A DNA stretch of 36,602 nt from the IMG/VR virus record IMGVR_UViG_3300020213_000069, positions 1 through 36,602 of that record, one strand, 5' to 3'. Of the stretch, positions 27,436-34,183 are shown piece after piece. Position numbers and translations under genes: made by a program. Each line of letters starts with the position of its first letter. Position 1 is the first letter of the stretch. The notes under the pieces are model-generated. The model did not search any database, had not been told where the DNA came from, and saw only the letters and a program-made list of their open reading frames with translations. Source of the stretch: a virus.

Positions 27436-27674
27436 GACAGTCCTTTTGTTCTAAGAATCCATTCTTTAACTTCCAGGGAATCCATGTCAGAAGAATCTGA
27501 ATTAACTCTAGTCAGTGATTTTATTTGGCTTAGTGGAAACCACTCGGTAACAAAGTTATGCTCTGCCCACATCTTATCACTGATGCCCTTTATTCTAAAT
27601 CTAACTGCCTTTTCGGTTTCAGTTATAATGGTTCCATTAATTTTATAGTACACATCTGAAGATTCGCGGCTCAT
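27432..27674 (-). CDS. Small protein, unknown
   Basis: 80 residues from the ATG at 27674 (AAAGGA seven bases upstream), preferred over a TTG two codons earlier. The sequence forms an apparent beta hairpin followed by a strand (YYKINGTIITETEKAVRFRI), then WFPLSQIKSL. I recall a similar 'kAvrf......e.WfP.Sqi' pattern in small phage proteins of unknown role. ATGA overlaps on both sides show tight coupling. Confidence 0.65.
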   Translation of the reverse strand: MSRESSDVYYKINGTIITETEKAVRFRIKGISDKMWAEHNFVTEWFPLSQIKSLTRVNSDSSDMDSLEVKEWILRTKGLS

Positions 27675-27931
27675 ATACAATCCTTTCCTATTGTGTTAAT
27701 TTGGTAATGTAGACGAAATGTGATAATTGAGTGCTTAATTTCATGAGTAAGAATTGTTTTTCTGGGATCAGTCTGAATTTTGTATCCTAAATCAAGCCAC
27801 TTTTCTTTTACAACTGCCTTTAAAATTCTAGGGTGCAAAAGAGAGTTTGCCGTTACAGAAACGCCTTTTACTTGTGCGTCTCTTAACGACATTGATTTAA
27901 GTTTAATCCAAATTGGTTGATACTGCCTCAT
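27671..27931 (-). CDS. Small protein, start buried in a stem
   Basis: About 86 residues from the ATG at 27931. The frame also opens upstream through GTG/TTG codons to 27955. Neither start has a GGAG-type ribosome site. The region of the start is the 3' arm of a long inverted repeat (27928-27941 with 28033-28046), so its translation may be controlled by RNA folding. The product is basic, with WIKLKSMSLRDAQVKGVSV and THEIKHSIITFRL stretches, and belongs to no family I recognise. Confidence 0.5.
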   Translation of the reverse strand: MRQYQPIWIKLKSMSLRDAQVKGVSVTANSLLHPRILKAVVKEKWLDLGYKIQTDPRKTILTHEIKHSIITFRLHYQINTIGKDCI

Positions 27932-28046
27932 ATAGTTAGACACTGGCCACACCAAAAAATAAGACTGTGTGTTTTATGCTAGATCTTCTACTGGGAGTTG
28001 GGTAGTATGGCGCGTAGAAGTTACCATCTAGCGTCTAACTATATGA
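27928..28046 (-). ncRNA. Candidate structured RNA element
   Basis: Three nested, perfectly complementary stems: 14 bp (27928-27941 with 28033-28046), 7 bp (27978-27984 with 28026-28032) and 7 bp (27985-27991 with 28014-28020). The right arms are contiguous except for a 5-base bulge (28021-28025). The left side carries a 36-base insert with a further 5-bp hairpin (CACAC/GTGTG, 27948-27952 with 27967-27971). The apical loop is 22 bases. Loop bases 28001-28008 (GGTAGTAT) can also pair with ATACTACC at 28080-28087. On the - strand transcript the element spans the gap between two genes and contains the downstream ATG. It is not a tRNA: it is too short and lacks a T arm. Confidence 0.6.
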
Positions 28047-28071
28047 ATACAGTTGAGCAGTTTTATTTCGT

Positions 28072-28095
28072 GCTCAGGAATACTACCTTCTGAGG
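28072..28095 (-). other. Short hairpin after the 28099 stop
   Basis: CTCAG and CTGAG (28073-28077 and 28090-28094) can form a 5-bp stem immediately below the stop codon of the gene ending at 28099. No T-run follows. It may protect the 3' end of that transcript. Confidence 0.25.
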
Positions 28096-28098
28096 AAA

Positions 28099-28737
28099 TT
28101 ACAGATTCTGTCCGATTGTCAAAAGATCGTCGGCGGCCAAATAAGAATATGCGCGACGCACCAGAAGCTCCAGAATATCACTGAAGTTAGACGCATTGGC
28201 GGTTTCCGTATAGATAGCCAACTGCTCTTTCAGGCGCTTGATAACATCTTTTTGCGTCTTCCAAGGAGCGAACTTGCGAACATAAACTTCAGTTGCATTC
28301 TTGACAGCTTCAGGACTCTTTCCGGTCCGGCTAGGCATAACCGCACAATAATCTTCCACAAAAGCAGTCCACAATTCTTCTGGGAGAGAAGAACTGCGAC
28401 GATCTTCTTTGGGCATATTTGCAATTGCAGCCCAGGACAGCTTAGGAAGATCCAGATTTTCCTGCGACAATTCCAGATTATTCGTAACCATCTCAGTTAG
28501 CACTGAGCGAACAACATCGTAGAAAGAGTCTCGCATCAACTCAAACTGTTTAACATCGCCTGATTCAAGAATCGAAATTACCCCTTTCAGTGTAGGAACA
28601 GGAGCCATAAGTTTAACACCTGGCCGCTGATTGCCCAGCTTGTCTTTCTTGAATCGGAAGTTAAACTCTTCCAATTTAAAGATAGTTTCCAGGGCTTCAT
28701 TAACTGCAACAGGAGCAATAGTTTTATCAGTAGACAT
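28099..28737 (-). CDS. Conserved phage protein, promoter-proximal, unknown
   Basis: 212 residues, soluble and helical. Blocks such as FNFRFKKDKLGNQRPGVKL, LSWAAIANMPKEDRR, CAVMPSRTGKSPEAV and LKEQLAIY recall a family seen in several podophages without assigned function. It is the first gene after a good sigma-70-type promoter (28832-28860), with ribosome site AAAGGAAG. Its third codon positions are richer in C/G than those of its neighbours. These features point to strong expression. A DNA-binding or replication-scaffold role is possible, but no motif proves it. Confidence 0.75.
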   Translation of the reverse strand: MSTDKTIAPVAVNEALETIFKLEEFNFRFKKDKLGNQRPGVKLMAPVPTLKGVISILESGDVKQFELMRDSFYDVVRSVLTEMVTNNLELSQENLDLPKLSWAAIANMPKEDRRSSSLPEELWTAFVEDYCAVMPSRTGKSPEAVKNATEVYVRKFAPWKTQKDVIKRLKEQLAIYTETANASNFSDILELLVRRAYSYLAADDLLTIGQNL

Positions 28738-31863: not shown

Positions 31864-31948
31864 TGGTCCCAGAAGCGGGAATCGAACCCGCAAAGATTTC
31901 TCCGGCGGATTTTAAGTCCGCTGTGTTTACCTATTTCACCATTCTGGG
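31864..31948 (-). tRNA. tRNA-Leu (anticodon UAA)
   Basis: 85 bases including an encoded CCA. Acceptor CCCAGAA pairs with TTCTGGG. The D region is TGGTGAAATAGGTAAACAC. The anticodon stem GCGGA/TCCGC has a 7-base loop with TAA as anticodon. A long variable arm follows (class II, as for Leu), and the T arm is GCGGG-TTCGATT-CCCGC. It lies inside the leftward operon, flanked by genes at 31845 and 31970. It would read UUA (and by wobble UUG), codons expected to be common in this AT-rich phage. Confidence 0.95.
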
Positions 31949-32750: not shown

Positions 32751-33452
32751 TCAAGACGGCAATTCCACTTGCTTAGTGACCGGGTTGAAGTGAGCCAGGC
32801 AAAGAATCATGAATTGTTTATTCTTTTCTACTTGTACTGCAGCATTAGCAGCAGCAGCGTCAGCCTTAGCAAAATAATTAGCAGCATGATCAGCATCATA
32901 ATTAGCAGCAGCAGCGTCAGCATTAGCAAAATAATTAGCAGCAGCAGCAGCAGCATAATTAGCAGCATTAACAGCAGCATAATTAGCATTAGCAGCGTCA
33001 GCCTTAGCAACCTCAGCAGCATTAGCAATATAATCAGCATAATCAGCAGCATAATCAGCATGATCAGCAGCATACTTAGCAGCATGATCAGCAGCATAAT
33101 TAGCAACATAATCAACAGCATCATTATAATTAGCAACAGCCCTAGCAGCCGCCTTGGCAGCAGTCTCAGACTTTTGGCTGTAAAAAGTATTAAAATTACT
33201 GATCGAATCTGCGCAAAGTCTTGCAAACTCTGCTATTATTTGTATTTCCCCTTTCCTTTGCGATAACAGCCAACAAATATCAGATATATTGTTTGACTTT
33301 ACTGCATCGACGATTGGAAAGAGAATAGAGTCTGATTCTGTTTTGTTTTGTCCTATGAGAATTCGTCTCCAACCAGACCAACAAGGCTTGAAAGATTCTA
33401 TTTCTGCAAGAGAAGTAAACAGGACAGGATAAGGTGAAAACTGTGTATTCAT
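32751..33452 (-). CDS. Alanine-rich repeat protein, paralogue A
   Basis: 233 residues. An N-terminal domain (about 1-95; DICWLLSQRKGEIQ, EFARLCADSI) is followed by about 110 residues of Ala-rich 4-6 residue repeats (AANYAA, AADHAAKYAAD) and a conserved C-terminus (EKNKQFMILCLAHFNP). The layout, with an 'ICWLL...FA..CAD' head and Ala/Asp/Tyr repeat helix, resembles proteins labelled putative immunity (Imm-5-like) or hypothetical in phages. The neighbour 33656-34183 is a clear paralogue with fewer repeats. Ribosome site AGGAAAT. Function unknown; an anti-host or superinfection role is speculative. Confidence 0.7.
   Translation of the reverse strand: MNTQFSPYPVLFTSLAEIESFKPCWSGWRRILIGQNKTESDSILFPIVDAVKSNNISDICWLLSQRKGEIQIIAEFARLCADSISNFNTFYSQKSETAAKAAARAVANYNDAVDYVANYAADHAAKYAADHADYAADYADYIANAAEVAKADAANANYAAVNAANYAAAAAANYFANADAAAANYDADHAANYFAKADAAAANAAVQVEKNKQFMILCLAHFNPVTKQVELPS
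32838..33150. repeat. Degenerate AGCAGCATAAT-type tandem repeats
   Basis: On the + strand the DNA is a long run of AGCAGC, ATAATT/ATCA and similar short units, encoding the Ala-rich repeats of the - strand gene. The units are irregular but locally exact (for example GCATAATTAGCA-like units recur), which indicates slippage or unequal recombination. Confidence 0.75.
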
Positions 33453-33464
33453 GATAGGGATTTC

Positions 33465-33659
33465 CTAGTTAAGAAATTCAATTGCGTTGAAATACTGATC
33501 GTAACAAACTGTAGCAAATGCTTGAAAGTAAGTCCACGGGTCAACTACAGGAAAAGCAGTTGCAAGTAATTGATAAGCATCTTCCGCTGCATCATGCGAA
33601 GAAAACACTAGCAGAGAAGAAGTATCAGAATGCGGATGTTGGACTTGAGTGAATATCAT
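33465..33659 (-). CDS. Small protein between the paralogues
   Basis: 64 residues, no family recognised. Aromatic and hydrophobic C-terminal half (DPWTYFQAFATVCYDQYF). Its ATG overlaps the stop of paralogue B (ATGA), so it is translated together with it. It has no duplicate next to paralogue A, so the duplication did not include it or one copy was lost. Confidence 0.6.
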   Translation of the reverse strand: MIFTQVQHPHSDTSSLLVFSSHDAAEDAYQLLATAFPVVDPWTYFQAFATVCYDQYFNAIEFLN

Positions 33660-34183
33660 GCCGGAATCTCGACGTGATTAGTGATCGGATTGAAATGGGA
33701 CAAACAGAGAATCATAAATTGTTTATTCTTTTCTGTTTGTACTGCGGTAGCAGCAGCATAAATAGCAGCATAATCAGCAATATAATCAGCATTATCAGTA
33801 GCAGCAGCAGCAGCATAAATAGCAGCATAATTAGCATTTTCAGCAGCCTTAGCAGCAGCATAAGTAACAGCATTAGCAGCAATAACAGCATAAGTAGCAG
33901 CATTTCTGCTATAGCTATTATTTAAATGACTCACTGAATCTGCGCAAAGTCTTGCAAACTTTACTGCAACTTGTATTTCTGTTTTCCTTCTCCTCAACAG
34001 CCAACAAATATCAGACATACTGTTTGATTCTACTGCATCGAGGATTGGAAACAAAACAGAATCAGCTTCCAGTTTCTTTTGTCCTATGAGAATCTGTTTC
34101 CAACCATTATCACAAGGATTAAAGGACCAGATTTCGTCAAGCGAAGTAAGCAGGACAGGATGATTGGAAGAAAGTGTATTCAT
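33656..34183 (-). CDS. Alanine-rich repeat protein, paralogue B
   Basis: 175 residues. The first 90 residues align closely with paralogue A without gaps (both have PVL-TSL-EI-SF-PC, DICWLL and FARLCADS). The C-terminus is also shared (VQTEKNKQFMILCLSHFNPI). The Ala-rich middle is only about 55 residues, roughly half of that in paralogue A. The two copies therefore differ mainly by repeat number. The promoter-side copy of the dyad element (34233-34301) lies about 50 bases upstream. The ribosome site is weak. Confidence 0.7.
   Translation of the reverse strand: MNTLSSNHPVLLTSLDEIWSFNPCDNGWKQILIGQKKLEADSVLFPILDAVESNSMSDICWLLRRRKTEIQVAVKFARLCADSVSHLNNSYSRNAATYAVIAANAVTYAAAKAAENANYAAIYAAAAATDNADYIADYAAIYAAATAVQTEKNKQFMILCLSHFNPITNHVEIPA
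33745..33903. repeat. AGCAGCATAA-type repeats, shorter copy
   Basis: The same type of GCAGCA/ATAAT repeat DNA as at 32838-33150, encoding the shorter Ala-rich segment of paralogue B. Repeat number differs strongly between the two paralogues. Confidence 0.7.

Follow-up and report, generated by a model that had tools for sequence, protein, structure and literature searches.

On the minus strand of a phage replication operon, a real structured RNA element lies between two genes, of 212 and 86 aa; in this element, an H-type pseudoknot is followed by a long outer stem (P1) and a three-way junction. The window, that is, the whole stretch of DNA analyzed, comprises 36,602 nucleotides of an uncultivated virus (IMG/VR record IMGVR_UViG_3300020213_000069), and the element lies on its transcribed minus strand at 28085-27927. 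Twenty-six homologous elements occupy the same operon position in uncultivated podophage-like contigs. Judging from the compared sequences, the element probably controls translation of the small conserved gene that follows it, the start codon of which is usually placed inside P1.

Overall fold of the element

The features of the element and of its two neighboring genes, in the 5' to 3' order of the minus strand, are as follows:

28099..28737, minus strand: upstream gene, 212 aa, located 5' of the pseudoknot and the element in relatives
28055..28081, minus strand: H-type pseudoknot (PK), S1 28081-28078/28069-28066, S2 28075-28072/28058-28055
28028..28047, minus strand: P1 (long outer stem), 5' arm; two-sided changes at each of the 15 modelled pairs (26 elements), 97.2% paired
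28020..28027, minus strand: conserved junction strand AUGGUAAC
27985..28020, minus strand: P2 hairpin with a variable loop, CTTCTAC 28020-28014 / GTAGAAG 27991-27985
27971..27984, minus strand: conserved junction strand AUCUA-GCAUAAAAC (GUCAAAGCAUAAAAC in other members)
27949..27970, minus strand: P3 hairpin (ACAC/GUGU) of variable length; two-sided changes at each of the 4 pairs, 94.9% paired
27927..27946, minus strand: 3' arm of P1 (P1'), holding the start codon (27931-27929) 15 nt after the junction
27671..27931, minus strand: downstream gene, 86 aa (MRQYQPIW...), without a Shine-Dalgarno (SD) sequence

The complete order of the element is pseudoknot - P1 - AUG(P4)GUAAC - P2 - GUCAAAG or AUCUAG - CAU(P4) - AAAAC - P3 - GG - P1', and the conserved core is formed by AUGGUAAC / GCAUAAAAC / GG. 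P1 of the window reaches inward to 28028/27946 and consists of 19 pairs and one A.C mismatch, the latter being replaced by a G-C pair in L073 (a 99.8% identical relative). P1 is a stem of 15-20 bp in the general anatomy, and in a stem scan its length was 18-25 bp in nearly all members. The P4 helix is formed between AUG 28027-28025 and CAU 27978-27976; it is AUG/CAU in class A, CUG/CAG in class B, and AAC/GUU in others. P2, which is outside the covariance model, was seen in most relatives by fold inspection. The GG dinucleotide (27948-27947) directly follows P3. The stretch GCATAAAAC is invariant across six seed sequences, and the core variants B, C, E, and F all have P1 and an A-rich strand in the junction, and in most cases GG as well.

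The transcribed strand folds with an energy of -54.2 kcal/mol, compared with a mean of -40.3 kcal/mol for shuffled sequences (z -3.42, none of the 200 shuffles being as good). The plus strand folds less well (z -2.09). The initial annotation described nested stems with 28 base pairs, and these are found in the window: a 14-bp outer stem (28046-28033 / 27942-27929, minus strand) and two inner stems of 7 bp. The relatives bear out a conserved nested fold on the transcribed strand, but the middle 7-bp stem (28032-28026 / 27984-27978) is not general. It is possible in about four elements (the window, L003, L076, and the first copy of L085), where it competes with the inner pairs of P1, which are conserved, and may represent an alternative conformer.

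The pseudoknot upstream of P1 follows the pattern nnnC-CU-GGGC-AU-Gnnn-nUAAAACU-GCCC. In the window, S1 has three of four pairs, and the loops are CU, AC, and UAAAACU. Across 25 relatives, most of them chosen by pairing, 99% of the cells are paired, two-sided changes occur at 7 of 8 pairs, and the covariation score is 0.683. In an unbiased search by the loop letters only, 22 of the 27 candidates located in intergenic gaps can pair (S1 at least 3/4, S2 4/4) vs none of the 82 outside the gaps. The pseudoknot is retained in phages without the junction element (L075, L096, L098, L100). A different pseudoknot had been proposed at first, between an 8-nt loop and its complement; this complementarity exists in the window (28087-28080 / 28008-28001), but no equivalent was seen in the relatives inspected by eye, and the pairing clashes with the conserved pseudoknot (28081-28055), which it overlaps.

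Genomic context

The polymerases of Aeromonas phage P5 and Polaromonas phage Tiera share ~30% identity with that of the window, and the polymerase of Pseudomonas phage PaP2 shares ~27%. A DNA similarity search of known phages gave no match. Family and fold searches placed neither neighbor of the element: the 86-aa protein, predicted as a small alpha/beta fold (pLDDT 89), shows no known family and no significant fold match, and the 212-aa protein (model pLDDT 84) shows no known family and no fold match.

In Rfam 15, the region of the element has no match at the gathering threshold (the best permissive one is sbrA, with 17.7 bits vs a threshold of 45), and there is no tRNA or tmRNA within the window element; the Rfam matches in relatives are limited to tRNA. 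A tRNA-Leu (UAA) is located elsewhere inside the replication operon, at 31864-31948; it is also present in the relatives L111 and L155 and is annotated in EBPR podovirus 3. Two related minus-strand genes, at 32751-33452 and 33656-34183, encode products rich in Ala/Asn/Tyr/Asp repeats, with N- and C-termini alike.

The interval between the two flanking genes is occupied in various ways. Several RNA modules seem to have a place at this locus, since L065, L080, and L081 carry a different conserved structured stretch (GATCCTGGACGCAATCC ... GTTGTACAGGGTAGGATC) between homologs of the flanking genes. A tRNA-Thr gene is found in the same interval of L120 (9283-9358), and tandem elements of different core type are present in L085 (9183-9501), L155 (210-552), L084, and L095.

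Conservation and covariation

Relatives were located in viral contigs via polymerase, helicase, and core patterns. In L003, whose polymerase is 64% identical, the sequence of the element is different, and the fold, the core letters, and the flanking genes are the same. A first model (A6, R1), built from six seed sequences, matched ~20 of the helicase and pattern loci. The second model (R2) matches 26 elements with E values from 6e-21 to 4.5e-4, including the 17 sequences used to build it, which match by construction. In a search of 46 whole records, 21 had a confident match, at a single site in each genome, and two weak extra matches had E values of about 0.02-0.03. No element was found in the stretches taken from the distant annotated phages Tiera, EBPR podovirus 3, Aeromonas P5, and PaP2.

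Two-sided changes are observed at all 22 modelled pairs (15 in P1, 3 in P4, and 4 in P3), and 97.2% of the cells are paired in the 26 elements. The covariation score is 0.767 vs 0.201 for shuffled and at most 0.129 for slid alignments, in an alignment that was fitted to the model and is hence biased toward the structure. An earlier count on 17 sequences, made before P4 entered any model, gave 98.1% of paired cells and a covariation of 0.775. The phages are related, so the counts of elements and of start codons are not independent trials and overstate independence, although several core types are spanned. Where the element exists, no gene was found to be kept with uncompensated loss of the pairing (97% of the cells paired, with many two-sided changes). 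Several relatives keep the 86-aa gene without any element, which is thus dispensable.

Among the P1 cells, there are 35 G.U pairs vs 6 A.C. This excess of G.U indicates that selection acts on the transcribed RNA strand, and it rules out an antisense (plus-strand) RNA as well as a DNA cruciform. A self-splicing intron joining the two genes was also rejected: a conserved stop of its own ends the upstream gene, the N-termini of the downstream proteins vary about their respective start sites, and the elements are small and, by judgement, without recognizable intron cores.

Position of the start codon

The ATG of the downstream gene (27931) had been noticed inside the outer stem and without a ribosome site, and both observations hold. 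The inner end of P1' was located by hand in every element. Counted from the first nucleotide of P1', an AUG begins at exactly 15 nt in 18 of the 29 elements, and at 16-17 nt in 3 more. The +15 position recurs across several core types, and in 9 of the 18 elements this AUG starts the 86-aa gene or is in frame with it. A scan for the best stem at each locus, tallied by hand, placed an AUG 3-10 nt inside the outer end of the stem in 22 of 33 long stems. An AUG is missing from P1 in 8 of the 29 elements (about a third) and in L130, which was found later.

An SD sequence precedes the 86-aa gene in 1 of 39 homologs vs 25/43, 32/43, and 28/43 for other genes of the operon; in most other well-sampled operon genes it is present in about half to three quarters. 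The gene is also SD-less in relatives devoid of the three-way junction (L075, L098/L100).

When the AUG in P1 is not the start of the gene itself, a leader ORF begins there and in many cases runs up to the next start. The leaders of L003 (MSRDFL, ATGA), L082 (MLPLP, TGATG), L093 (MGSTNVS), L164 (MRTSNLR), and L074 (MSTPLISA) stop at, overlap, or end within ~5 nt of the gene start. Longer leaders are observed in L076 (40 codons, ending ~23 nt upstream of the gene start) and L072 (33 codons, overlapping another ORF). Three of the phages with tandem elements have a leader ORF that reaches or adjoins the second stem: in L084 and L095 it extends into the 5' arm of this stem, which holds the AUG of the gene, and in L085 it stops just before that arm.

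Possible functions

Control of translation in cis is the simplest account, because the AUG is fixed in a maintained duplex, the SD sequence is missing, and the leaders are coupled to the gene. In the mRNA of the replication operon, the three-way junction (P1, P4/P2, P3) caps the long P1 behind the H-type pseudoknot. With P1 formed, the AUG would be closed; only with P1 opened or cut would the 86-aa gene, or a short leader ORF coupled to it, be translated. The most plausible means of opening would be processing of the 20-bp duplex or a factor that recognizes the junction or the pseudoknot. We put the chances about even that the SD-less AUG is held closed in this manner until the outer stem is opened or cut. 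A translational switch, one of the functions suggested in the initial annotation, is supported as the leading idea, and that interpretation as a whole is partly supported. Two observations speak against such control: the gene is SD-less even in the relatives without the junction, and P1 is a very long helix for a switch meant to be reversible. Closing of the AUG cannot be the sole function either, given the elements without an AUG in P1.

The most concrete candidate for the opening step is cleavage of P1 by RNase III or a similar nuclease, which would split the upstream mRNA from a near-leaderless message and free the AUG, the excised junction being a by-product. This specific form of cis control is somewhat unlikely to be the correct one. 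The length of P1 agrees with the duplex of roughly 20 bp expected for an RNase III site, the AUG is near the 3' end of the duplex, and a near-leaderless message needs no SD sequence, which the gene indeed lacks; the conserved unpaired nucleotides of the core and the pseudoknot would, however, be left without explanation. Phage leaders processed by RNase III are known from the early mRNAs of T7. If the excised RNA itself were the product, i.e. a stable small RNA acting in trans, the position of the AUG would reflect the tight packing of the next gene. The elements lacking an AUG in P1, the tandem copies of different core type in two phages (L085 and L155), and the tRNA gene that fills the same interval in L120 are in line with this idea, which we regard as unlikely, as it does not explain the exact 15-nt spacing, the missing SD sequence, and the coupled leader ORFs.

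The conserved unpaired core and the pseudoknot would suit recognition by a protein, and the neighbors are constant, so that a translational operator bound by the 86-aa protein, its 212-aa neighbor, or another phage protein might be considered, by comparison with T4 gp32 or ribosomal protein S15. Neither neighbor resembles a known RNA-binding protein in the family and fold searches, and we consider such an operator very doubtful. The fixed spacing, the lack of an SD sequence, and the adjoining pseudoknot could also be read as SD-independent, IRES-like initiation, in which the folded RNA would recruit the ribosome to an AUG 15 nt from the junction. This is highly improbable, as the AUG is base-paired in P1, which must be opened for this AUG to enter the ribosome, and the sole case reported in E. 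coli (the IGR IRES) proved to be structure-independent and S1-dependent (PMC9458429). A wider proposal, which we rate as quite unlikely, is that a modular family of phage RNAs replaces the SD sequence: the junction and the pseudoknot would set the AUG at 15 nt, the architecture of the RNA would dictate initiation (by direct recruitment, or by self- or host-cleavage giving a leaderless message), and interchangeable cores would tune it.

Relation to known systems

By its probable working principle, the element is nearest to the translational operators of phages and ribosomal proteins. Like the ribosomal-protein pseudoknot operators (rpsO/S15 and alpha operon/S4), it would be a structured RNA around a start codon that controls initiation; the fold and the sequence are unlike, and there is no ribosomal protein gene at this locus. 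The rpsO/S15 and alpha operon/S4 operators include the SD sequence. With the gene 32 operator of T4, T2, and RB69 it shares the placement of an H-type pseudoknot before a start codon, in the mRNA of a phage replication gene (PMC3014915). In gene 32, however, what follows the pseudoknot is an A+U-rich, unstructured stretch that covers the ribosome site, whereas here it is P1 and the three-way junction, with the AUG; as the unstructured stretch is absent, the element was not filed as a gene 32-type operator. Moreover, the gene 32 operator has a ribosome site and binds the SSB that it regulates, while here there is no SD sequence and no neighbor is a recognized SSB.

A conserved multi-helix junction core closed by P1, with the start site in the 3' strand, is found here as in translational riboswitches, but the latter switch through a short P1, in contrast to the about 18-25 bp of the present stem, which also lacks an SD sequence and an Rfam match. 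As in the RNase III-processed leaders of T7 early mRNAs, a long intergenic duplex in a phage operon could close a start site until it is cut; the conserved three-way junction core and the pseudoknot set the present element apart, and its cleavage is putative. The dicistrovirus IGR IRES also places a pseudoknotted RNA directly before a start codon, but it belongs to a eukaryotic virus, and its activity in E. coli was explained by S1 and a stretch resembling an SD sequence (PMC9458429).

In general, these uncultivated podophage-like viruses carry an RNA family that is absent from Rfam and has unusually strong comparative support, and in which a pseudoknot and a conserved three-way junction are combined with an SD-less start at a 15-nt spacing and with coupled leader ORFs. 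According to a 2010 review, the T4-type gene 32 pseudoknot was perhaps still the sole viral pseudoknot known in translational autoregulation (PMC3014915), and the existence of structure-based initiation in bacteria, which is unproven, has been posed as an open question (PMC9458429). Both questions become testable in this system with simple reporters.
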